Part shown: positions 3,909 to 63,971 of the stretch, piece after piece
How the letters are laid out: every line of letters starts with the position of its first letter
Numbering within the stretch: position 1 is the first letter of the stretch
Origin: Urechidicola croceus
GTDB lineage: Bacteria; Bacteroidota; Bacteroidia; Flavobacteriales; Flavobacteriaceae
NCBI GenBank assembly: GCA_905181865.1
Contig: CAJIZG010000002.1
Span: 62,001 to 126,000 of the forward strand
Reading direction: 5' to 3'
Length of the DNA: 64,000 nucleotides
Made by a program: the position numbers and the translations under genes
The notes under the pieces: generated by a model
The model's database searches: none
Told to the model about the DNA's origin: nothing
What the model saw: the letters and a program-made list of their open reading frames with translations, nothing else

Positions 3909-5129
3909 CTACCTCCTCCGATTCGGCAATAACGGTGGGGGCTCCCCATTAAAAGGATTCGAGCGACTGATACTTTTAGCATCCATACCCGCGGCACGTA
4001 TTACTTTTCGGTCACCATAACGCTCACGCATTTTATCTATGGCTTGGTACAGACTCATAATTTTATCATTATCTTCAAATAAATTAATTTGATGTCCGCC
4101 GCTCACCAAATGGCTAAACTTTACGCCAATCAAGCGCACCAGTAATCTCCGCTGGTAGAGGCTTTCATACAAGTCCATCACAATGGGTAAAATGGTATGA
4201 TCAGAAGAGCTATACGAAATTCGTTTTTGTTTGGTATAGGTTTGAAAATCGGAATAGCGAATTTTAAAGGTTACACAAGCGGTGAGTTTATTACCTCTGC
4301 GTAATTGATATATCAAATTTTCGGCCATCGCTATAATAATACTTTTTAGTTTTACCACATCGGTCGTGTCTTTGTCAAATGTACGCTCGGTAGAAATTGA
4401 TTTGCGCTCGTGGTACTTAATCACAGGCGTATTGTCTATCCCATTCGCTTTTTTCCAAATATTCCCACCCGATTTCCCAAATACTTTGATCATCATTTGG
4501 ATGGGCATTTCTTGTACGGTTTTAATTCGCTTAATTCCCAAATCACATAATATGGTATAGGTTTTTTCTCCCACCATCGGTATTTTTCTTACCGACAAAG
4601 GCGCTAAAAAAGGTTTTTCGGCACCCAATTCTATTTTAAGTTCGTTGTTGGGTTTGGCTTCACCCGTAGCAATCTTAGAAACTGTTTTATTGGCCGATAA
4701 TCCGAATGAGATTGGCAAACCCGTTTCGGTCATAATCTTAGTTCGTAATTCAGATGCCAATTGATGGCATCCAAAAAATCGATCCACTCCAGTAAGGTCT
4801 ATATAAAACTCATCAATCGATGATTTTTCATATAGTGGCACCGATTCATTAATCACATCAGTCACCAGTTTGGAGTATTTGGTATAGATCCCCGAATTAC
4901 CCCGCAATACAATGGCTTCAGGGCATAATTGCCTTGCCATTCGCATAGGCATAGCAGAATGTACGCCGTATTTACGGGCTTCATAACTGCACGAAGCCAC
5001 TACGCCACGGTCGGATGTACCACCAATCAGCACAGGTTTATTTTCGAGTTTGCTATCCATCAGGCGTTCGCAAGACACAAAAAAAGTATCGAGATCCATG
5101 TGTACAATGGCGCGTTTTAAGTGTGTCAT
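3909..5129 (-). CDS. dinB: DNA polymerase IV (Y-family translesion polymerase)
   Basis: Y-family DNA polymerase, 406 residues, which inserts nucleotides opposite damaged bases. The catalytic acidic residues are visible: Asp12 in HMDLDTFFVSCE and Asp106-Glu107 in SSIDEFYID. The GVHSAMPMRMA block and the helix-hairpin-helix region around KIPMVGEKTY are typical, followed by a little-finger domain. The stop end overlaps nothing, but the start overlaps the stop of the upstream DnaE-type polymerase by 4 bp (5126-5129), the usual sign of translational coupling. Together they form a mutagenesis cassette analogous to ImuB-DnaE2, controlled from the promoter and palindrome at 8130-8148. Y-family and DnaE pairs of this kind are normally DNA-damage induced. 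Confidence 0.93.
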   Translation of the reverse strand: MTHLKRAIVHMDLDTFFVSCERLMDSKLENKPVLIGGTSDRGVVASCSYEARKYGVHSAMPMRMARQLCPEAIVLRGNSGIYTKYSKLVTDVINESVPLYEKSSIDEFYIDLTGVDRFFGCHQLASELRTKIMTETGLPISFGLSANKTVSKIATGEAKPNNELKIELGAEKPFLAPLSVRKIPMVGEKTYTILCDLGIKRIKTVQEMPIQMMIKVFGKSGGNIWKKANGIDNTPVIKYHERKSISTERTFDKDTTDVVKLKSIIIAMAENLIYQLRRGNKLTACVTFKIRYSDFQTYTKQKRISYSSSDHTILPIVMDLYESLYQRRLLVRLIGVKFSHLVSGGHQINLFEDNDKIMSLYQAIDKMRERYGDRKVIRAAGMDAKSISRSNPFNGEPPPLLPNRRR

Positions 5130-8095
5130 AATGCTAAAGGTTTTGTATCGTTGGTATAGCGGGGATCTTGAATAATGCCTAATTTCTCGCAGTGGGTTAC
5201 TTCGATATTTACACAGTCGAATTCGGAAATAACTTTCCCCGTAATTTCATAAACGCCACGTCCTTTTAGTGGATATTTTTTGGCAATAGACGGAAAGTGT
5301 ACCGTGTCTATATGATCGCCTTTGATATCTATAAAATTTCCGAAATACATCAAGTCTCCTTTTGAAGTTATCGTTTTTTTGGCAGTTACATAATAGCCGT
5401 ATACTGTAATTTTTTTGTTGAGATACTGAGGAAAATCATTGGCATAGATAGTGTTTTCAACAGGGGCCTTCAGCAATAAAAACGGACTGCATAATGGAAA
5501 CCCGAGATATTGAATTTCGTCAAAGGCATCTTCGTATTGTGCCGCGCTTAATTCGGGCGTATTGAATGTGATTTTCTCTGATTTAAACAGCGTAATCACA
5601 TATTCTTCGGTTGGTACTTTGTTCACTTTCATATAGGCTTCCCACAGGAGTTCTCGTTTGTTGCGTTGCACAAAGGCAAAGGCATTTACTTTTATTAAAA
5701 TGGTGAGTTGCTGTAAGGAGATTGATATGCGATCTATAAAATCATTCAGACTTTCAAAAGTCCCATTCGTGTTGCGTTCATTGATAATGTTTTTAGCATT
5801 ACTAGACTCAAAAGCATGTAAATTCATAAAACCCAAATAGATATTTTTTTCTTCAATGCTATTGTGATACTTCGATTTGTTAATGTTTACGGAATGAATT
5901 GTGCCACCATTCATACGTGCCTCGTGTATATAATATTCTGCGCGGTAAAACCCGCCACCATTATTAAGCGTTGCCACCATATATTCTAGCGGATAGTAAG
6001 CCTTTAAAAACAGACTTTGATAACTCTCTACCGCATACGATGCCGAATGTCCTTTGGCGAAAGCATAACCAGCAAAGCTTTCTATCTGTCGCCAGATTTC
6101 GGTAGTTAATTCATTTTTATGCCCTTTGTTTTTACAGTTTTCAAAAAACTGATTTTTTACTTTTAAAAATTCTCCTCTAGATCTAAACTTCCCACTCATG
6201 CCGCGGCGTAGCATATCGGCTTCTCCTAAGTTGAGCCCGCCAAAATGATGCGCTACTTTAATCACATCTTCTTGGTAGACCATCACCCCAAAAGTTTCGG
6301 GCATAATGTTTAATAAAATAGGATGCGCATCTTTGCGCCGCTCCGGATCTCGATAGCGTTGAATGTATTCACGCATCATCCCAGATTTTGCCACTCCAGG
6401 ACGAATTACAGAACTGGCTGCAACCAAGCCCAAATAATTATCAACTTCTAATTTTTTAAGCAGCATGCGCATGGCAGGAGATTCTATATAAAAACACCCA
6501 ATGGCTTTGGCATTTCTAAGAATATGTTTGATTTTTTGATCCTGCTTAAAGCGCCTGATATCATGAATATCGATGGGCTTATGTTTGGGATTGTTGTGTT
6601 TTACGATATCAACGGCTTCTCTAATTTTCCCCAATCCACGCTGACTGAGAATATCGAATTTATACAAGCCAATATCTTCAGCGACCACCATATCAAACAT
6701 GACGGTAGAAAATCCTTTTGGCGGAAAAAAAGTTGTGACATATGAATGAATTGGTTTTTCTGAAATTAAAATTCCCCCTGCATGAATGCCTAAGTAATTC
6801 GGAAACCCCTGAATGTACTTGCTATAAATCAACACTAATTTTGAGAGTTTATCGAGTTGTTGTACTTGAAATGCACCACTTGATAATTTATCAATTTCCG
6901 ATTTTGGCAACCCGAATACTTTGCCCAATTCTCGTACCGAAGCCTTGTACTTAAATGTATTATAAACGGCAATCAAAGCGGTATGCTTAAAACGATTGAA
7001 AATAAAGTGAGTAATATCATCACGATCGCGCCAAGAAAAATCGATATCGAAGTCCGGCGGATTGGTACGGTAGAGATTGATAAATCGCTCAAAATACAAA
7101 TCGAGTTCTATGGGGTCTACATCGGTAATTCGCAACAAATACGCTACTACGCTATTGGCACCACTACCACGTCCTACATAAAAATAGCCTTTACTACGCG
7201 CGTATTTGAGTATTCTCCAGTTGATGAGAAAGTAGGAGACAAACTGTTTTTCTTGAATGATATTTAGTTCTTTTTCCAATCGCTCAAAAACACGGCGACC
7301 TATTTTTTTATAACGGTAATGTAAACCTCCGTAGGCTAATTTTTTTAAGAGTTTAAAATCTAAGTCCGCACTTTTGGTATAAGTACGTTGATTTTTAGGC
7401 TGTTCAGAAGTTATGTTAATCGTAATCTCACAAGTATCGAGAATGTACTGGGTGTTTTTAATGAGTTGTGGAAACTCAGCATACCTATTTTTAAGAATGG
7501 TTATTGGAAGCATAATATCGCTTTCATCACCTTGTTCTGATGTTGGGAGTTTACTTAGTAAGGTATTGTTATCAATAGCTCGTAACAAGCGATGTGTATT
7601 GAATCCTTTTTTATCTTGAAAAGAAACCGTTTTTAAAATCACCAATTTATGTAAATATTGATTCCAATCAGAAAATTTGAGTGTGTTTAAATCTGATGGT
7701 TTTACGCCAACATATTCATGTGATTTCAATTCGAAAACATCGTTTTGAAAAGGGTAAATGATATAGGTACTTGGCAAAAATTTCGCACGTTTTGGAATCT
7801 CAAAATTAGCTGTATGTAAGAACTCAGACAGGTAATTATTGATATGAAAATAACCGGTGTCATTTTGAGCAATGGCAATGAACTGTTGACTAACTTTATT
7901 TCTAAAATCAACACCTAAAATGGGTTTTACTTCACTTTTTTTAGCCAAACGCACAAAATCTAAGCAGGCAGTTGTACTATTAATATCTGTAAGTACAAGT
8001 GAGTCATATCCACTCTCAACCGCTTGTTCTATCAAGGATTTCTGGTCGATCGTTCCATAGCGTAAGCTATAATATGTGTGTATATTCAAATACAT
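5126..8095 (-). CDS. dnaE: DnaE-type DNA polymerase III alpha subunit, probably the error-prone paralogue
   Basis: C-family polymerase of 989 residues, shorter than a replicative alpha subunit. The start MYLNIHTYYS at 8095 is chosen because it begins the PHP domain; an extension to 8155 would run through the promoter and palindrome. The catalytic region shows GRGSGANS near residues 308-315 and PPDFDIDFS near 346-354, with the catalytic aspartates. A thumb/helix-hairpin-helix region and an OB fold follow at the C-terminus. It overlaps dinB by 4 bp. The pairing with a Y-family polymerase and a LexA/UmuD-like operator points to damage-induced translesion synthesis rather than bulk replication; this role is inferred from context. 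A scrap of a second copy of its 5' end lies at 48954-49020. Confidence 0.88.
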   Translation of the reverse strand: MYLNIHTYYSLRYGTIDQKSLIEQAVESGYDSLVLTDINSTTACLDFVRLAKKSEVKPILGVDFRNKVSQQFIAIAQNDTGYFHINNYLSEFLHTANFEIPKRAKFLPSTYIIYPFQNDVFELKSHEYVGVKPSDLNTLKFSDWNQYLHKLVILKTVSFQDKKGFNTHRLLRAIDNNTLLSKLPTSEQGDESDIMLPITILKNRYAEFPQLIKNTQYILDTCEITINITSEQPKNQRTYTKSADLDFKLLKKLAYGGLHYRYKKIGRRVFERLEKELNIIQEKQFVSYFLINWRILKYARSKGYFYVGRGSGANSVVAYLLRITDVDPIELDLYFERFINLYRTNPPDFDIDFSWRDRDDITHFIFNRFKHTALIAVYNTFKYKASVRELGKVFGLPKSEIDKLSSGAFQVQQLDKLSKLVLIYSKYIQGFPNYLGIHAGGILISEKPIHSYVTTFFPPKGFSTVMFDMVVAEDIGLYKFDILSQRGLGKIREAVDIVKHNNPKHKPIDIHDIRRFKQDQKIKHILRNAKAIGCFYIESPAMRMLLKKLEVDNYLGLVAASSVIRPGVAKSGMMREYIQRYRDPERRKDAHPILLNIMPETFGVMVYQEDVIKVAHHFGGLNLGEADMLRRGMSGKFRSRGEFLKVKNQFFENCKNKGHKNELTTEIWRQIESFAGYAFAKGHSASYAVESYQSLFLKAYYPLEYMVATLNNGGGFYRAEYYIHEARMNGGTIHSVNINKSKYHNSIEEKNIYLGFMNLHAFESSNAKNIINERNTNGTFESLNDFIDRISISLQQLTILIKVNAFAFVQRNKRELLWEAYMKVNKVPTEEYVITLFKSEKITFNTPELSAAQYEDAFDEIQYLGFPLCSPFLLLKAPVENTIYANDFPQYLNKKITVYGYYVTAKKTITSKGDLMYFGNFIDIKGDHIDTVHFPSIAKKYPLKGRGVYEITGKVISEFDCVNIEVTHCEKLGIIQDPRYTNDTKPLAL

Positions 8096-8129
8096 TTTTA
8101 TAGAAATTGTAGTAGGAGAATTATTTCCT

Positions 8130-8148
8130 GCTAATTTAGCCAAATATA
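8130..8148 (-). promoter_or_regulatory. dnaE-dinB promoter -7 box abutting an 11-bp operator palindrome
   Basis: On the minus strand TATATTTG (8148 to 8141) matches the Bacteroidota -7 consensus TAnnTTTG and is followed at once by the perfect palindrome GCTAAATTAGC (8140 to 8130), so the operator would cover the transcription start of dnaE. No convincing -33 TTTG is seen. The same block recurs at 48902-48920 in opposite orientation and the palindrome alone recurs at 63961-63971. It is proposed as the site of the S24-type repressor encoded at 48098-48871. Confidence 0.6.
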
Positions 8149-8178
8149 TAAGCAATAGCTGCTCATAATATTAGCATT

Positions 8179-8436
8179 ATCGATTATTTAGCAAAAAACA
8201 TAAAACATATAAGAAGCCTTAAAAATTTAACATAAGCGTAATTAGGGGAAGCCTTAAAAGTATAGTGATCACACGAATTAGTTTGTATGAAGAAAATAGG
8301 GCAATGCTACCTGTAGGCTTTTTGGTTTCACTGTCTGATTTTTTTATTAAAAATAGGAGTACATCACGCTTTGTTTCCAATTACGATAGATGGGACCAAT
8401 GAAGATTTGATTGAAATTATTCTTGTAGAAGTTTAG
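8179..8436 (+). pseudogene. Decayed LexA/UmuD-like S24 regulator
   Basis: Dead copy of the regulator at 48098-48871. Where the intact gene has ATGAATTATTTAGC this copy reads ATCGATTATTTAGC, so the start codon is lost. The next codons still translate as DYLAKNIKHIRSLKNLT, then stops interrupt the frame. After a frame change one can read RISLYEENRA and FLVSLSD, and after another ALFPITIDGTNEDLIEI, each matching the intact protein in order. The peptidase half is missing. The promoter side (8100-8178) is nearly identical to the region upstream of the intact gene, so the two loci are duplicates rather than convergent. Confidence 0.85.
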
Positions 8437-9060
8437 AAAGCAGATAAATTAGATTTTAAATTTACAGCTCTAATTGAAGCAGTATAATCAGCAATTATTT
8501 TTGCTCCCAAAGATGATTCATAGATAGATTCACCTTTGCTAAAAATAAAACTATAATTTAAAGGATAGATTACAACAACCAATTTGTTAATCGGTGTTTA
8601 AGTAGTTCCCACTCCTAAATCTAAATATTCAGGATCGTTAAAATTATCTAAAATTGTAGTTTTGTACTCACCTAAAGCTGATACAGCACATTTGTTGTTT
8701 AATTTATTCCATATAAAAAAGTAATACTAAAAACATCTGTAGCGGATTCAAAATTATCATTATCCGTTTCTATATTCTTATTCAACCTAAATTTATTACA
8801 AGAAAAATTTCTCCAGAAAAACTTTTCTTGTAATAAATTGGCATAAGCGTTTACTATTATTCCAATATTTCCAGTTGAAGAATTTGGGATTCCTTTTGAA
8901 TACTAATTGTTAAAACCATTGAGATTTACACCTATTAGTTCCAAAAGTTCTTTTTTCCATCTAGTAAGAGCATTAATTTGTCCTTGTAATGTGTCAACTT
9001 CGATTTGAATGTTATGATAGAATCTTTTTTAGATCCTTGTAATACTTTAAAGAGTTACAA
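8437..9060. other. Gene-poor stretch with decayed coding scraps
   Basis: No intact gene. On the minus strand short open pieces (for example one reading DTLQGQINALTRWKKELL near 8915-8980) are broken by stops, which suggests a decayed gene that I could not identify. The only clear structure is the long inverted repeat at 8790-8839. Confidence 0.5.
8790..8839. repeat. Long perfect inverted repeat (17-bp arms)
   Basis: AATTTATTACAAGAAAA at 8790-8806 is the exact reverse complement of 8823-8839, with a 16-bp spacer that itself holds TTTCT-CC-AGAAA. The transcript of either strand would form one long hairpin. It lies inside a decayed coding region and lacks a following T tract, so it does not look like an ordinary terminator. 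Confidence 0.8.
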
Positions 9061-9564
9061 TTATTTACTCCTAAATAGAGGGACCGTTGAGCATGCTTCA
9101 CCATACATAATTGACTTCACAACAGGAACTAATTTGGTGATTAATTGAGTGTAGGCAGTTTCAGGAATCGGTTTTTCAGAACACCCTTTAATAATAATAG
9201 GTTTGTCTTTATAAGAATCTGTCGGTAATTGAGAGATAATATCTTGAAAAATAGAAGTTTCTAATTCTTTCAAGTTTCCAATAATTATTTTTTTTGCAAA
9301 TGGTACTAATTCAGTTGTGACAAGCATAAATGCCCAAGAGGGAATAATCGCATCAGTAGAACAAGTCAAAGCCACATAACAGTTATTATACTGTGTCCAA
9401 TCATGATTTTTTACGGATGCTCTAAAATCTTTTTCTTTGAGAATAATTCCTTCAAACAACCATTCTTTAATATCAAAAATAATGCGATCTCCCAAAGGAT
9501 AATAATCCTCCAAATCGATCGTAATGAGTACACTGTTTGCAACCCTGTTTTTAATTGCTTCCAT
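9061..9564 (-). CDS. DUF2480 family protein
   Basis: 167-residue cytoplasmic protein matching the DUF2480 family of Bacteroidota. Characteristic segments are VLITIDLEDYYP, FDIKEWLFEGIILKEKDFR and the cysteine-bearing VALTCSTDAIIPSWAFML. No biochemical role is established for the family. It is 8 bp downstream of the SufT-like gene and in the same direction as sufE, an arrangement common in Flavobacteria, so a link with Fe-S cluster assembly or delivery is plausible but inferred. Confidence 0.85.
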   Translation of the reverse strand: MEAIKNRVANSVLITIDLEDYYPLGDRIIFDIKEWLFEGIILKEKDFRASVKNHDWTQYNNCYVALTCSTDAIIPSWAFMLVTTELVPFAKKIIIGNLKELETSIFQDIISQLPTDSYKDKPIIIKGCSEKPIPETAYTQLITKLVPVVKSIMYGEACSTVPLFRSK

Positions 9565-46059: not shown

Positions 46060-46694
46060 TCCCGGTTTTATACTAAAACAAGTCTAACTGGCTCGAAGTG
46101 TTTGGGTTCTCGGAATGCGCTTCAAGGTTATTGCTATACGGGAATTTAAAATCGTTATAATCTTCTCCATGCAACTAATATTGTTCGTTTTATTGTTTAA
46201 GAATAATAGGTATACGCTGTTTCGTATTGTGAATTTGACTCATTAACTCATTGGCTTGTGATGTTAACATGGTATACGAATTTAAGACCGTATCATTAAA
46301 ATCGATCTATTGAGAATACAAACCAGTGAAGGCAACGAGTACTTCTTTAGGAAGGGGGATTAAATATTTTTGTTTTTGCGAACCACTTTTAGAGAGCCAT
46401 TACCACTCATAAAAGCCATCCGCAATTATAAGGCACCTATTCTGAATCATATCTTTAAAAGGGGGTTTTTCATTTAATGTTTCTATACGTGCATTTAGTG
46501 TATAATGTCTAAATGAAATATTGTCTGCCCAATTGGGTACTAACCCCTAATTATGGAGCGAAATTTTATTTGGCTGTTTCGTTGCTAATAATAGGTGTTT
46601 TCGGATACTTAAAAGTATTATTTAATTCAAAATCTTCAACGCTCATTAAGTTGTCTAAATCAACTCGAAACCGATGCCGAATTCCTTCTTTTCC
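46060..46694 (-). pseudogene. SRAP (HMCES/YedK-like) DNA-damage protein, decayed
   Basis: Minus-strand pieces of an SOS-response-associated peptidase in order: FRVDLDNLMSVEDFELNNTF, KTPIISNETAK, then (in another frame) the region of the conserved CLIIADGFYEW motif reading as broken codons, then VAFTGLYSQ, and TMLTSQANELMSQIHNTKQR with IPIIL. Many stops and frame changes intervene and the N-terminal catalytic Cys2 is missing. Intact SRAP proteins bond covalently to abasic sites in single-stranded DNA. It follows the exonuclease/GIY-YIG gene, so it was once the third gene of that damage-response operon. Confidence 0.75.
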
Positions 46695-48101
46695 TTAATT
46701 AAAGGCGTTTGATAGTACATTTTCTTCAAAGTTAATATTTTCGAATTCCGAACCTAAACTCAATAGCATTTCTGAATTATTCTTTAGATAAGAATTAAGA
46801 ATGCGTTTAATATCATTGTTATCTTTTTGCATCAACAAAGCGTCTTTATAATCTTTGGGTGTATGTTTAGCGCCTACAGGTAAATAACCGAAACCTCTAT
46901 ATACACCGTCTGTTATTAGTATAAATGTCAACTCTTCGGATGTTCTACCGGCTTCTTTTATGATAAAATTTTCGCTGTCAAATTTTACGGAAGCAATAGC
47001 TTCTAATACGCGGTTATTATAGCCTTCAACAGTTTCTTCTTCTCTACAAATTCCTTTACATTGTTTGATTTGATAATGGAAACAACTTTCAATATTGGTT
47101 TGTAAATGACAGTATTTAGGGCACAACTCAAACGCTTTACAGAGTTTTTCTAAAAACTGTCTACACGACACATTGTTGTAAAATTTCACCAACGGGTTTT
47201 TTACCATTTTTAAAGAATTGTACGCTAAATGAAGTATTCCTTTTCGATCTTCATAAGCAAACAAACCGATGCTTTCTTTCGCTCTGCGCTGTGCGCTATT
47301 GTATTTTGGAAATAAGTGTTTGATCTTGGCAGATTCTAATAGTAGTGCCACTAATTCGCTTCCCGTTTCTTCAAACTTTATATTAGTGATCTCCAAACAC
47401 ATTGCAACCTCTTTCTTTGCCTTATCATAAAAATGACTCTGTACACGCTGCTTGATATTGTTGGCTTTACCTATATAGATTACTTCACCTTTGGTGTTGT
47501 AAAAATAATAGATACCTTCTCTTTCTGAGAGTCCGTCAAAAACTTTTTTGGGCAATAAAGGCGGTAAGGTGGCTTGTCTAGAACGCGGATTCAAAAATGA
47601 TTCAAATATTCCTTTATCGTCCAATCTTAATAGTTTTTCGAACAAAATAGTGGTGGCTTCAGCATCTCCTTTAGCTCTATGTTGATTGACAATTTTAATT
47701 TTTTCCGAAGCGCAAATAGCACCTAGACTGTAAGACTTTAATCCAGGAATTAATTTGCGAGACAAACGTATGGTGCACAATTTCTTTCTTTTAAAATCGA
47801 AACCTAATTCTTTGAACTCTGACTGAATAATATTATAATCGAAATTTACATTATGGGCTACAAAAGTGGTGTCTTCAGTAATTGCTGCAACCTTTTTTGC
47901 AATCTCGTAAAACTTCGGAGCATTGCTAACCATTGCACTATTAATACCTGTTAAATTGGTAATAAACTGCGGAATATGAGTTTCTGGATTTACCAAGGTA
48001 GTATATTCGTCTATCACTTTTTCTCCATCAAAAATAAAGATAGAAATTTCGGTAATCTTTGTTCCTCCGGTGGTTTCTATGTCAACAATGGCATAGTTCA
48101 A
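46695..48101 (-). CDS. DnaQ-like exonuclease fused to a UvrC/Cho-type GIY-YIG nuclease
   Basis: 468 residues. Residues 1-165 are a DEDDh 3'-5' exonuclease: YAIVDIETTG (first Asp/Glu pair), FVAHNVNFDY and QHRAKGDAEAT (His and last Asp). Residues about 195-280 are a GIY-YIG domain: REGIYYFYNTKGEVIYIGKA with the catalytic Tyr, Arg and, further on, Glu in GSELVALLLESAKIK. The C-terminal part resembles the Cho/UvrC cysteine-containing region (CPKYCHLQ, CKGICREEE). It overlaps the upstream S24 regulator gene by 4 bp, so it is co-translated with it and probably damage-induced, making and trimming incisions at lesions. Confidence 0.88.
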   Translation of the reverse strand: MNYAIVDIETTGGTKITEISIFIFDGEKVIDEYTTLVNPETHIPQFITNLTGINSAMVSNAPKFYEIAKKVAAITEDTTFVAHNVNFDYNIIQSEFKELGFDFKRKKLCTIRLSRKLIPGLKSYSLGAICASEKIKIVNQHRAKGDAEATTILFEKLLRLDDKGIFESFLNPRSRQATLPPLLPKKVFDGLSEREGIYYFYNTKGEVIYIGKANNIKQRVQSHFYDKAKKEVAMCLEITNIKFEETGSELVALLLESAKIKHLFPKYNSAQRRAKESIGLFAYEDRKGILHLAYNSLKMVKNPLVKFYNNVSCRQFLEKLCKAFELCPKYCHLQTNIESCFHYQIKQCKGICREEETVEGYNNRVLEAIASVKFDSENFIIKEAGRTSEELTFILITDGVYRGFGYLPVGAKHTPKDYKDALLMQKDNNDIKRILNSYLKNNSEMLLSLGSEFENINFEENVLSNAFN

Positions 48102-48871
48102 CTTACTAATTTTTCTAATGATTTCAACTCAATGCCCAACTGATTAAACATAGTGGCAATGCTACTTATTTTTAATTCGTGCTCGTCATATTCTTGGGTA
48201 TTAATAGCGCAGGTAAATTCCCACAACTCCAAGACTTCATCAACGGGCACATGATACGGATCGTATTTCTTGTTGTCAGAAACTAATAACAAGGTTTTAT
48301 GTTCTTCAATATGGTCGTAAACGCGTTTATAAACGATTCCGTCGTTTAAAGTTAGTATGATGTAGGTCTTTCCGCTTTTTACATAGCGTGCATCTTCTAT
48401 GAACTTCGCAACAATATAAGAGCCACTTTTTACAGGTAACATAGAATCTCCTTTAATAGGAAAAGCTCTGTGTGTTCCAGTAGGTAAAAAAGGCAACTTA
48501 ATTTTATTGAGGTGTTCTATATATTCTGGATCTGCATAACCGCGTAAATATCCTGCTGAAGCTTCTACGGGAACAATTTCAATGAGGTCTTCATTGGTTC
48601 CATCTACTGTAATTGGAAACAAAACTCGGTGTGTTCCTATTTCAATAAAAGAATCATTCTGTGATCTTGATAAATCGTTTTTTATTAAAATATCAATCGG
48701 AATTTTAAAATAATCAGACAGTGAAACTAAAAAATCTACAGGCGGAATAGCCCTGTTTTCTTCATACGAACTAATTCGTGATCGAGACACGTGCAAATCT
48801 TCACCAAATTGCTCTTGTGTTAAATTTTTAAGGCTTCTTATATGCTTTACGTTTTTTGCTAAATAATTCAT
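48098..48871 (-). CDS. LexA/UmuD-like self-cleaving repressor (XRE + peptidase S24)
   Basis: 257 residues. Residues 4-60 are an XRE helix-turn-helix (NLTQEQFGEDLHVSRSRISS). The C-terminal half is an S24 peptidase: a cleavage site Ala106-Gly107 (VEASAGYLRG), catalytic Ser143 in IKGDSMLPV and Lys182 in IVYKRVYD. This order is that of repressors that cut themselves when RecA filaments form. It is the intact partner of the decayed copy at 8179-8436. It probably binds the GCTAAWTTAGC palindrome beside its own promoter (48910-48920), at the dnaE-dinB promoter and possibly at 63961. It is the first gene of the operon with the exonuclease/GIY-YIG nuclease. Confidence 0.88.
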   Translation of the reverse strand: MNYLAKNVKHIRSLKNLTQEQFGEDLHVSRSRISSYEENRAIPPVDFLVSLSDYFKIPIDILIKNDLSRSQNDSFIEIGTHRVLFPITVDGTNEDLIEIVPVEASAGYLRGYADPEYIEHLNKIKLPFLPTGTHRAFPIKGDSMLPVKSGSYIVAKFIEDARYVKSGKTYIILTLNDGIVYKRVYDHIEEHKTLLLVSDNKKYDPYHVPVDEVLELWEFTCAINTQEYDEHELKISSIATMFNQLGIELKSLEKLVS

Positions 48872-48901
48872 AATGCTAATATTGTGAGCAGATATTGCTT
48901 A

Positions 48902-48920
48902 TATATTTGGCTAATTTAGC
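48902..48920 (+). promoter_or_regulatory. Second copy of the -7 box and operator palindrome
   Basis: TATATTTG (48902-48909) followed directly by GCTAATTTAGC (48910-48920), the same block as at 8130-8148 but in the opposite orientation. The TATATTTG box points right, to the dead dnaE scrap; the intact regulator reads left from 48871. Confidence 0.6.
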
Positions 48921-48953
48921 AAAAAATACTTCTCTTTCTACAATTTTTGTAAA

Positions 48954-49020
48954 ATCTATTTGAATGTACGGACATAATATAGCCTTCGCTATGGAACAAT
49001 CACCCACAAATCAAGAAGAC
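48954..49020 (+). pseudogene. Scrap of the dnaE 5' end
   Basis: Aligns codon by codon with the start of the intact gene at 8095: the ATG has become ATC (48954-48956), then YLNVRT, a stop, YSLRYGTIT and HKS are readable before similarity fades. The untranslated leader between palindrome and start (CTACAATTT and flanks) matches too. Only about twenty codons remain. Confidence 0.8.
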
Positions 49021-49110
49021 AAACGTTGGGCTGATGAACTAAAAAGTACTAAAATAAATAGTAGAAAAACTTCAGCAAGCGAAATAATTTTAAATCCTAA
49101 GAGATCTTTA

Positions 49111-50331
49111 TTAGATACTATTTCCTTTGTCGTCATATTCTAAATATAAATAGTCATTATATGGAAAACGTTGCATGTGAACTTTTTTTACTTCCTCAAA
49201 AACCTTTTCTCTAAACTCTTCTAGATTTTCAGAATTAAGGGCTGAAATAAATAAACTGTTCTCACCCATTTCATTCATCCAAGTGTTTTTCCAATCATTC
49301 AAAGTGTAGTGATCTTTGGTTCTTTCTGTAACCAAATCATCTTCATCTATGGTTTTGTGTGTATACGCATCAATCTTATTAAAAACCAAAATTGTAGGCT
49401 TGTCTGCACTTTCAATTTCATCCAATACTTTATTTACAGAATTTATATGATCTTCAAAATTAGCATGAGAAATATCTACAACATGCAATAACAAATCGGC
49501 CTCTCGTACTTCATCTAACGTCGACTTAAAAGATTCGATTAATTGTGTTGGTAATTTTCTGATAAATCCAACCGTATCTGTCAACAAAAAAGGAATATTC
49601 TTAATCACCACTTTTCGAACAGTAGTATCTAAAGTTGCAAATAGTTTGTTTTCTGCAAACACATCACTCTTGCTCACTACATTCATTAAAGTAGATTTAC
49701 CAACGTTTGTATAACCCACCAAAGCAACACGAACCATACGGCCTCTATTCTTTCGTTGAATAGCCATCTGCTTATCTATTGTCAATAACTTCTTTTTAAG
49801 TAAAGAGATTTTATCACGAATGATACGTCTGTCTGTTTCGATTTCTGTCTCCCCAGGTCCACGCATTCCAATACCTCCTTTTTGACGGCTCAAGTGTGTC
49901 CAAAGACGGGTTAATCGAGGTAATAAATATTGACATTGTGCCAACTCAACCTGTGTTCTGGCATAAGAGGTTTGCGCTCTTTGCGCAAAAATATCTAAGA
50001 TTAAATTGGTTCTGTCCAGAATTTTACACTCTAAAACCTTTTCAATATTTCTTAATTGCGCTGGATTTAATTCATCATCAAATATTGCAGTTCCTATATT
50101 ATTTTGATCAACATAAGCCGCTATATCTTCCAATTTTCCTGCACCAATAAACGTCTTTGGATTTGGCTTTTCTAACTTTTGCGTAAAACGTTTTACCGCA
50201 ACTCCACCTGCCGTTAGGGTTAAAAACTCTAACTCGTCCAAATATTCAGTTGTTTTTTCTTCATCTTGATATTGCGATACAACTGCAATGAGTACCGCTT
50301 TTTCTGATGTTGCCTTTTTCTCTTCTATCAT
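49111..50331 (-). CDS. hflX: Ribosome-associated GTPase HflX
   Basis: 406 residues. The N-terminal HflX domain (about 10-185, with KTFIGAGKLEDIA and FDDELNPAQLRNIE) is followed by the glycine-rich linker GGIGMRGPGETEIETDRR and a GTPase domain with G1 GYTNVGKST (206-214), G3 DTVGF and G4 NKID. It splits stalled or hibernating 70S ribosomes under stress. It stands alone next to the regulator locus. Confidence 0.95.
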   Translation of the reverse strand: MIEEKKATSEKAVLIAVVSQYQDEEKTTEYLDELEFLTLTAGGVAVKRFTQKLEKPNPKTFIGAGKLEDIAAYVDQNNIGTAIFDDELNPAQLRNIEKVLECKILDRTNLILDIFAQRAQTSYARTQVELAQCQYLLPRLTRLWTHLSRQKGGIGMRGPGETEIETDRRIIRDKISLLKKKLLTIDKQMAIQRKNRGRMVRVALVGYTNVGKSTLMNVVSKSDVFAENKLFATLDTTVRKVVIKNIPFLLTDTVGFIRKLPTQLIESFKSTLDEVREADLLLHVVDISHANFEDHINSVNKVLDEIESADKPTILVFNKIDAYTHKTIDEDDLVTERTKDHYTLNDWKNTWMNEMGENSLFISALNSENLEEFREKVFEEVKKVHMQRFPYNDYLYLEYDDKGNSI

Positions 50332-62098: not shown

Positions 62099-62185
62099 GT
62101 TACTCGGGCTTTATGTCTTTCAACAATAATTGAATAGAAGTCATTCCGTTCCAATTATTTTCATCTAAATTAAATGCCGCTTTAA
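62000..62185 (+). repeat. Right flank repeat of the decayed island
   Basis: Counterpart of 58515-58690: dead nuclease tail followed by the real recJ 3' end. Together the two copies bracket about 3.4 kb of decayed DNA as imperfect direct repeats. Confidence 0.8.
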
Positions 62186-63797
62186 AAGAATTACCATTAG
62201 AAGTAATTTCTTTTTTATGGCCTAGGCCAAACCCAATAGCATTATAGGTTTTCTTATCAGTAGCGTCGATTAAATTCAGTTTTAAATGCGATTTATCTTC
62301 ACCAACACATTTTCCAAAACCGTTGTCTCGTAAACCATTGGCTACAAAAATAGGGCGCATATTTTGAGGGCCAAAAGGCGCAAACTGATTTAATATTCTA
62401 TAGAATTTCTGATTGATATCACACAAATTCATTTCTGAATTCACGCTAATTTCAGGAGTTCGAAGTTCTTCAGGAATGGTTTTCTTTACGACTTTTTCAA
62501 ACTTCGCCTTAAATTTCTCGTAATTTTCTGGGAGTAAAGTGAGGCCTGCGGCATATTTGTGGCCGCCAAATTGTTCTACAAATTCAGCACATTGGTCTAT
62601 AGCATTGTATACATCAAATCCTTTTACAGATCTCGCCGATGCGGCTAATTTATCGCCACTTTTTGTAAATACTAAGGTGGGTCGGTAATAGGTTTCTATA
62701 AGTCTAGAAGCCACAATACCAATAACACCTTTATGCCAAGTTTCGCTATAAACAACAGTTGAAAAGTCCTGTTGTTCATTAGTTGTTTCAATTTGTTTAA
62801 GTGCTTCATAGGTTATTAATTTATCAAGTTCTTTTCTGTCGCTGTTGTACGTTTCTATTTCTCCTGCAATTTTTACGGCTTCTTTGAAATTTGTTTCAGT
62901 CATAAGATTTACAGCATGCAAACCATGTTTCATCCTTCCTGCAGCATTTATTCTCGGAGCAATTACAAATACAACATCGGTAATGGTTAATTCACTTTTG
63001 TTTAACTGATGAATGATTGCTTTAAAACCAATTCTTGGCGCTTTGTTTATAACCTTTAATCCGTAGTAAGCCAATATGCGATTCTCTCCCGTGATTGGAA
63101 CAATATCTGCGGCAATTGCTGTAGCTACCAAATCTAAATAAGGTACCAAATCTTCAATGGTTTGATGGTGATTTTTCGCAAGTGCTTGAACTAGTTTAAA
63201 ACCAACACCGCAACCGCATAATTCATCATAAGGATAATTACAATCCTCCCTTTTAGGATCTAATACTGCTACTGCATTGGGAAGCTCGTTGCCCGGTCTG
63301 TGGTGATCACAAATGATAAAATCGATGTCTTTTTCATTAGCATACTTAACTTTATCAATGGCCTTAATACCACAATCTAATGCAATGATTAATGAAAAAT
63401 CATTATCGTGCGCAAAGTCTATTCCCTGAAATGAAATTCCGTATCCTTCACCATATCTATCGGGAATATAGGTTGCAACATTCGGATATATAGATTTTAA
63501 AAAAGACGACATTAGCGAGACAGCTGTTGTTCCATCTACATCATAATCGCCATAAACCAAGATATTCTCATCTTTATAAATTGCTTCTTCAATTCTAGAT
63601 ACAGCGGTAGCCATATCTTTCATTAAATAGGGATCATGTAACTGATTTAAATCTGGGCGGAAAAATTGTTTTGCTTCATCAAAAGATTCGATTCCACGTT
63701 GAATCAATAACGACGCAATCAATTTATCAACTCCTAAAACTTTAGAAAGTTGACTGATTTTTTCAATCGGGGGTTGTTTTTGGATAATCCAGCGCAT
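62100..63797 (-). CDS. recJ: Single-stranded-DNA exonuclease RecJ
   Basis: 565 residues. DHH-family motifs are visible: VYGDYDVDGTTAV near residues 80-92, IIALDCGIKA, the DHH signature CDHHRPGNELP, and APRINAAGRM. The C-terminal DHHA1 (GGHKYAAGLTL) and OB-fold domains are complete. RecJ degrades single strands 5' to 3' in recombination and mismatch/base-excision repair. It converges on the decayed nuclease tail 1 bp away. Confidence 0.96.
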   Translation of the reverse strand: MRWIIQKQPPIEKISQLSKVLGVDKLIASLLIQRGIESFDEAKQFFRPDLNQLHDPYLMKDMATAVSRIEEAIYKDENILVYGDYDVDGTTAVSLMSSFLKSIYPNVATYIPDRYGEGYGISFQGIDFAHDNDFSLIIALDCGIKAIDKVKYANEKDIDFIICDHHRPGNELPNAVAVLDPKREDCNYPYDELCGCGVGFKLVQALAKNHHQTIEDLVPYLDLVATAIAADIVPITGENRILAYYGLKVINKAPRIGFKAIIHQLNKSELTITDVVFVIAPRINAAGRMKHGLHAVNLMTETNFKEAVKIAGEIETYNSDRKELDKLITYEALKQIETTNEQQDFSTVVYSETWHKGVIGIVASRLIETYYRPTLVFTKSGDKLAASARSVKGFDVYNAIDQCAEFVEQFGGHKYAAGLTLLPENYEKFKAKFEKVVKKTIPEELRTPEISVNSEMNLCDINQKFYRILNQFAPFGPQNMRPIFVANGLRDNGFGKCVGEDKSHLKLNLIDATDKKTYNAIGFGLGHKKEITSNGNSFKAAFNLDENNWNGMTSIQLLLKDIKPE

Positions 63798-63886: not shown

Positions 63887-63960
63887 TTTTTATTGCAATT
63901 TTTTCATCAGGTCGACTAATGCCAAAGCATTGTATCGAGACCTATTTAAACTTCTTTTTT

Positions 63961-63971
63961 GCTAAATTAGC
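63961..63971 (+). promoter_or_regulatory. Third copy of the GCTAAATTAGC palindrome
   Basis: Perfect match to the operator at 48910-48920 (other strand), again after a T run (CTTTTTTGCTAAATTAGC). It lies 22 bp before an ATG at 63993 (ATGAATA, cut by the window edge) that reads rightward. The gene it controls is outside the window. Confidence 0.5.

Follow-up and report, generated by a model that had tools for sequence, protein, structure and literature searches.

How did a pair of mutagenic polymerase genes come to stand beside a dead copy of its own repressor gene, and what controls the pair now? The question is raised by a stretch of 64,000 nucleotides of Urechidicola croceus (assembly GCA_905181865.1, contig CAJIZG010000002.1, positions 62,001 to 126,000; hereafter the window). 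It carries an open dnaE-dinB pair next to the dead 5' end of a divergent gene for a LexA-like S24 repressor, and the full-length repressor gene some 40 kb further on (Table 1). It is likely that an inversion copied the breakpoint of the cassette to both of its ends, and the full-length repressor probably controls dnaE-dinB in trans.

Positions 8037-8434 were an inverted copy of 48559-49013 (328 of 404 columns of the pairwise alignment identical), with some bases of play at the ends, which were taken from local alignment. The similarity fell into two pieces, 8081-8346 against the reverse complement of 48706-48968 (223/266 identical, 84%; E 2e-77) and 8328-8434 against 48559-48664 (85/107 identical, 79%; E 2e-20), separated by an internal deletion in the dead regulator copy. 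The copy continued 52-62 bp into dnaE (8037-8088 against 48961-49012, 81% over 52 bp), and 48951-49013 also aligned with the start of dnaE. Codon 1 of the dead regulator was ATC (8179-8181); codons 19 and 21 were in-frame stops, and 2 bases had been inserted. The dead dnaE beside the living regulator likewise began with ATC (48954-48956) and had TAA at codon 8 and nothing recognisable past about codon 20. Gene loss was reciprocal, because the left copy kept open dnaE-dinB and a dead regulator, and the right copy an open regulator and a dead dnaE.

The original prediction had placed a dead copy of the LexA-like repressor beside intact dnaE-dinB, a preserved promoter and palindrome between them, and a living regulator 40 kb away. 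The dead copy was borne out by the inverted alignment, the ATC start, the stops and the frameshift. The alignments took in the regulator start and the spacer, and ran on into the dnaE start; GCTAA-N-TTAGC was present in both copies, and the living regulator was found at that distance. A block had been copied as predicted, with limits of 8037-8434 and not 8095-8436. The dead dnaE start, which mirrors the regulator stump, was absent from that prediction.

Table 1. Coordinates of the features in the window.
Feature	Position (strand)	Details
dinB, Y-family polymerase	3909..5129 (-)	406 aa, open
dnaE, second DnaE-type alpha subunit	5126..8095 (-)	989 aa, open; start codon ATG, 8093-8095
Copy A of the duplicated breakpoint block	8037..8434	dnaE 5' end, spacer, regulator from codon 1 up to about codon 104
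Divergent spacer, copy A	8096..8178	read towards dnaE: CTAA-N5-TGAG, CTTA-N5-TTGG, GCTAAATTAGCA (8129-8140)
Dead 5' end of regulator gene	8179..8434 (+)	ATC, stops, 2-base insertion, deletion
Left inversion junction	8426..8434	regulator similarity ends 8434; DUF3078 similarity begins 8426 (8422 against G009)
Truncated, decayed DUF3078 gene	8432..9040 (-)	adjoins DUF2480; homologue open, 307 aa, in G006
DUF2480 gene	9061..9564 (-)	marks breakpoint 2; hflX neighbour in 5/13 congeners
Dead SRAP gene	46076..46720 (-)	downstream of exonuclease; 9 stops in the frame tried
DEDD exonuclease with GIY-YIG domain	46695..48101 (-)	468 aa, open, downstream of regulator
Living regulator, HTH_3 + Peptidase_S24	48098..48871 (-)	257 aa
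Copy B of the duplicated block	48559..49013	inverted relative to copy A
Divergent spacer, copy B	48872..48953	GCTAATTTAGCA at 48910-48921
Dead 5' end of dnaE	48954..49013 (+)	beside living regulator
hflX	49111..50331 (-)	at right inversion junction

The open dnaE and dinB retained the PDFDIDF and MDLD/SIDE motifs. dnaE scored 439 bits against NCBIfam PRK05672 (error-prone DnaE), below the curated cut-off of 939, and is therefore called the second DnaE of an SOS-type cassette and not a PRK05672 member. In the living regulator, HTH_3 (PF01381, E 6.9e-11) and S24 (PF00717, E 6.7e-8) were both over the curated cut-off. Its motifs were SAG at residues 105-107 (TAG in L132), GDSM from 141 and YKRV from 181; Ala-Gly, GDSM and YKRV were kept in 19 of 19 aligned full-length regulators, the catalytic residues being assigned by motif and not by structure. 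The genome search with the regulator (E up to 0.001) gave no other close living homologue, full or short; its other matches were dead pieces and one 26%-identical S24-like protein (G000:C2:25951, 249 aa). A second living or short copy elsewhere in the genome was ruled out by this search at the same threshold. Any control of dnaE-dinB by the regulator would be in trans, because the search gave no other close homologue. The predicted move of control to a trans copy was right to that extent; the move itself is something we infer. Downstream, the SRAP gene was dead; its match in the relative G010 spanned residues 1-214, and the homologue in L184 was open. A SRAP relic beside the dead regulator was also sought, without a credible match.

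Copies A and B were sisters (support 99/97) in a 17-row DNA tree and were joined next by G010 (100/99), the genome MedPE-SWsnd-G1, which was the closest relative found (regulator 88% and dnaE 84% identical). Over six outgroups, 16-23 sites joined A with B, 2-9 joined A with G010 and 3-5 joined B with G010. The tree places the copying after the split from G010, because A and B are sisters with G010 outside. A related genome with one complete cassette, as the original prediction proposed to look for, was found in the same G010, which has SRAP, exonuclease and regulator in one piece with the divergent dnaE-dinB.

Horizontal gain of a second cassette at either locus, with later loss of the redundant halves, agrees with the G+C content of the 1-8 kb end (0.37-0.40 per 2 kb, above most of the window) and with the varying location of the cassette between genomes. 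A and B were nevertheless closer to each other than to G010, and dnaE grouped with the dnaE of G010 (SH-like approximate likelihood-ratio test 100), which makes such a gain very improbable. An assembly error that joined two paralogous sites is hardly to be credited either: the assembly is a single one whose reads were not seen, but 76 of 404 aligned columns differed between the copies, which is high for a misjoin driven by repeats, and a single contig of 330,507 bases had both junctions in its interior.

DUF2480 and hflX were both present in all 14 genomes of the genus, the source genome included. The two genes were convergent on one contig and 1.1-3.1 kb apart in five of the 13 congeners (G001, G002, G005, G006 and G008); in the window they shared a strand and were separated by 40 kb. 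The gene runs at 9.0-14.0 kb and 49.1-57.4 kb matched the two arms of the DUF2480-hflX locus of relatives. When the inversion was reversed, DUF2480 came to lie beside hflX, and the order dinB< dnaE< reg> ... atpC< atpD< was obtained, which is the order of G021 and G022; the regulator of G228 likewise adjoined atpC-atpD. The left junction reads as clean and sharp. A single inversion with the cassette breakpoint copied is the simplest reading, because it accounts for the clean joint, the gene order in relatives and the restored neighbours.

The ancestor would have had an SOS cassette of a type known from Bacteroidetes, with a LexA-like S24 repressor, the exonuclease and SRAP divergent from dnaE-dinB and shared operators between them. 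The segment now at about 8.4-49 kb would have been inverted in this lineage. At the cassette breakpoint, the two strands would have been broken some 0.4-0.45 kb apart, or the sequence copied during repair, and the block of dnaE start, spacer with its sites and regulator start would have been placed at both segment ends in opposite orientation. The other breakpoint would have fallen inside the DUF3078 gene that stood between DUF2480 and hflX. The left end would have retained dnaE-dinB with a regulator stump, and the right end the regulator with a dnaE stump; the stumps would then have decayed, the change of both start codons from ATG to ATC being part of that later decay. With the shared promoter-operator copied, neither living gene would have lost its control region. 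Each fragment probably came into being already truncated, and neither need ever have been a complete gene, because a single inversion copying about 0.4-0.45 kb fits. The full-length repressor would bind both operator copies, repress itself and, in trans, dnaE-dinB, and be cleaved after DNA damage.

The original prediction had instead seen duplication followed by complementary loss, that is, an inverted duplication of the whole cassette after which each copy lost one gene. Its complementary loss was upheld by the dead dnaE at the other copy. The reciprocal loss, with one living side per copy, and the extensive paralogy of this repressor group in the available passages of PMC8565304 speak for duplication of the whole cassette; the gene order and the sharp junction at 8426-8434 speak against it. 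Outside the block, genome-wide searches with regulator, dnaE and exonuclease gave nothing more of a second cassette (those searches did not extend to further copies of dinB and SRAP). The regulator copy directly abutted DUF3078 sequence, and the positions of DUF2480 and hflX would in any case call for an inversion with these end points. This alternative is improbable.

Control in trans was considered from the spacers. CTAA-N5-TTAG is the motif published for this group of non-canonical LexA proteins of Bacteroidetes, with an electrophoretic mobility shift assay in another species (passages of Sanchez-Osuna et al. 2021, PMC8565304). The spacers carried CTAA-N5-TGAG, CTTA-N5-TTGG and GCTAA-N-TTAGC. 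Four site patterns, picked after the sequences were viewed, agreed between copies A and B at 29 of 29 letters; elsewhere in the aligned spacers 43 of 53 letters agreed and there was one gap (Fisher p = 0.012). Within the Lutibacter/MedPE clade, GCTAA-N-TTAGC was found in 11 of 11 intact cassettes, in 7 of 7 short-regulator dnaE loci (described below) and in copy A; it was found in both regulator loci with dnaE remains (copy B and L105) and in none of 13 without dnaE. The loose first dyad was found in 11 of 11 intact cassettes and in 12 of 13 loci without dnaE. Within this clade the palindrome thus behaves like a site of dnaE, and the first dyad like one of the regulator. The relatives amount to a natural deletion series of one SOS operator, in which loss of dnaE was accompanied by loss of one site and another was mostly kept. 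Repression of dnaE-dinB in trans by the regulator at 48 kb is likely on these patterns.

Alternatively, dnaE-dinB may have been freed from this regulator, and be constitutive or under the other S24-like regulator of the genome, the 26%-identical homologue named above. For Flavobacteriaceae that have both LexA groups, the accessible text of PMC8565304 predicts control of the SOS regulon by the GGA-N5-TCC group, and conservation of the two published-type dyads alone was not significant. There was however no GGA-N5-TCC in or near the dnaE spacer, and in the Lutibacter/MedPE clade the palindrome was kept with dnaE and lost without it. Loss of control is unlikely, with a larger share of the probability than duplication of the whole cassette.

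Several observations weigh against inversion with control in trans. DUF2480 and hflX were 44 kb apart in G009 and on different contigs in 7 congeners. The right junction (49014-49110, about 100 bp) matched nothing identifiable, and the genomes compared included none in an intermediate state. A CNNM gene lay between DUF3078 and hflX in G006, with homologues by tblastn in G001, G002 and G008, and was missing at the right junction of the window, so that an extra deletion must be assumed. The flanks of the G010 cassette were not collinear with the window, and the order before the inversion at the cassette end therefore rests on other genera (G021, G022 and G228). Neither spacer had an exact CTAA-N5-TTAG, and the two published-type dyads taken by themselves did not differ significantly from the remaining letters (16/16 against 56/66, p = 0.20). 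The palindrome was absent from other clades, namely from 11 intact rows, 10 rows without dnaE and the Lacinutrix dinB locus L190, which were left out of the Lutibacter/MedPE counts; the rows behind those counts are related, and the counts not independent.

Unlinking of regulator and polymerases was surveyed in 249 genomes of Flavobacteriaceae; a regulator row scoring 57 bits or more was present in 67 of them. Seventy of 92 listed regulator rows were classed and the 22 below 57 bits, mostly other S24-type proteins, were dropped; dnaE rows were taken only from genomes with a regulator row, plus two others. dnaE was divergent within 2.5 kb in 50 of the 67 genomes (within 400 bp in 33, and further in 17, usually with a dinB-sized gap), 8 were split, the source genome among them, and 9 had no DnaE of this type at E 1e-200. 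Sequence shared between the two loci was looked for in six other split genomes (G228, G225, G156, G309, G016 and G026) and found only in G156, with 43 bp at 81% between the spacers. Where regulator and dnaE lay on one contig, they shared a strand in the source genome (G000), G061, G063 and G228, whereas G006 and G225 had them on opposite strands, which is the ancestral arrangement.

The regulator of G228 lay by atpC-atpD, and dnaE-dinB was found on the same strand at a distance of 40 kb (C1:43746-48150 and 87995-88759). That G228 shares the inversion of the window was ruled out, since the genes in between differ, and its split is another, independent one. In Lutibacter sp. C9_concoct.bin.15 (L105), the regulator and exonuclease were accompanied by a dnaE start cut off after about 120 codons, and the genome gave no DnaE of this type at E 1e-120; its sequence reads as dnaE loss at an early stage.

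Lacinutrix himadriensis (L190 and L166) had a 386-bp block at 81% identity common to two loci, which were on contigs of different length (351,089 and 457,511). The first locus had dinB-dnaE with a regulator stump of 70 aa, and the second had a dinB start, with no dinB after it, beside the full regulator and exonuclease. By its sequence, this species has, independently, the same split anatomy as the window. The dinB of L190 matched in two frames.

Six Lutibacter genomes and the congener G006 (L182-L187, L089) had a helix-turn-helix (HTH)-only, S24-less regulator divergent from dnaE-dinB, of 72 aa in five, 75 aa in one and cut by the contig end in one. It was followed by an SRAP gene where the contig allowed (partial in L185), and the same seven genomes had a full S24 regulator and exonuclease elsewhere. 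The pairwise ratio of nonsynonymous to synonymous substitution rates (dN/dS) of the short regulators was 0.11 for L184/L186 and 0.07 for L187/L183, with dS near saturation, and 0.13-0.34 for the other pairs with finite dS (28 pairs, 5 with saturated dS). A search of 20 genomes at E 1e-12 gave the short form in the 6 with unlinked dnaE and in none of the 14 others. In the family sample it was found in G006 only and is therefore rare. The seven short regulators formed one clade in the HTH tree (71 columns; 96/83, bootstrap not settled), with the Lacinutrix stump separate. In the dnaE tree (32 of 57 extracted sequences used), polymerases of short-regulator genomes were mixed among those of intact cassettes; because the two trees disagree, recombination, repeated loss or repeated origin is needed.

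An HTH-only, S24-less regulator with low dN/dS beside dnaE-dinB is the boldest lead of this analysis. Tentatively, operator-copying breaks of the LexA/polymerase pair may be recurrent, each leaving a 5' stump of the repressor, that is, its DNA-binding domain alone, by the polymerases. The stump may die, as in the window, or be kept as an uncleavable Cro-like second repressor of 72-75 aa, as in Lutibacter and G006, with the full cleavable protein and the exonuclease elsewhere; L. himadriensis would be a young stage. If true, a CI/Cro-like pair would have been built from one SOS regulator. Literature searches, which covered mostly titles and the starts of abstracts, turned up no description of this repressor in a split or HTH-only form.

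Two further observations concern the surroundings. Positions 8790-8839, inside the dead DUF3078 gene, formed a 50-bp inverted repeat in which 44 of 50 letters matched their own complement. The third of three occurrences of GCTAAWTTAGCA in the genome was at 63960-63971, about 163 bp upstream of recJ (62100-63797, minus strand); it may be there by chance, a control pattern having given 1 hit.

The window suggests a route by which a divergent regulator and its target can be unlinked without loss of control, in that a break copying the shared operator leaves both regulated. An HTH-only relative of the Bacteroidetes SOS repressor beside mutagenic polymerases in turn poses a testable question on how stress-induced mutagenesis is set.

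The anatomy of the window recalls that of DNA duplication associated with inversion (DDAI), reportedly laid out by Furuta and colleagues in 2011. In such inversions the breakpoint sequence lies inverted at both ends, and genes are born or lost at the junctions. The term is used in the available portions of PMC8963470 and PMC4671568, and the DDAI at the arsenite oxidase of Thermus tengchongensis, as given in passages of the former, is a large inversion near a regulator/operon spacer with genes that differ from those of the window. Like DDAI, the window had a segment inverted relative to 5 of 13 congeners, and the sequence of one breakpoint inverted at both ends (8037-8434 and 48559-49013). In the window the copied block was the shared operator-promoter of a divergent repressor/polymerase pair, and both living genes kept their sites; no such operator-copying case was named in the passages that the literature searches returned.

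The imuA-imuB-dnaE2 genes form mutagenesis cassettes under LexA, and the system of the window is like them in linking a LexA-like repressor to a Y-family protein and a second DnaE. Such cassettes are named in passages of PMC8565304. The Y-family protein of the window keeps MDLD and SIDE, and ImuB is called catalytically dead in the accessible part of PMC6511836. The CTAA-N5-TTAG LexA group is linked to dinB, a second DnaE, a GIY-YIG exonuclease and SRAP according to the same passages of PMC8565304. The regulator of the window resembles this group in its HTH_3 and S24 domains, its Ala-Gly, Ser and Lys motifs, the similar though inexact sites in its own promoter and the same linked genes, and differs from it in being unlinked from the polymerases. 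The main text of PMC8565304, searched for truncated, pseudogene, Cro and Lutibacter, gave no account of a split or truncated copy. According to the available text of PMC12288472, dnaE2 of Myxococcus xanthus is activated by the XRE regulator DdiA, unlike the supposed repression by the short regulators. Likened by function, without sequence comparison, DdiA is an XRE protein acting on a mutagenic DnaE beside a LexA system, and in that respect parallels the short regulators of Lutibacter.

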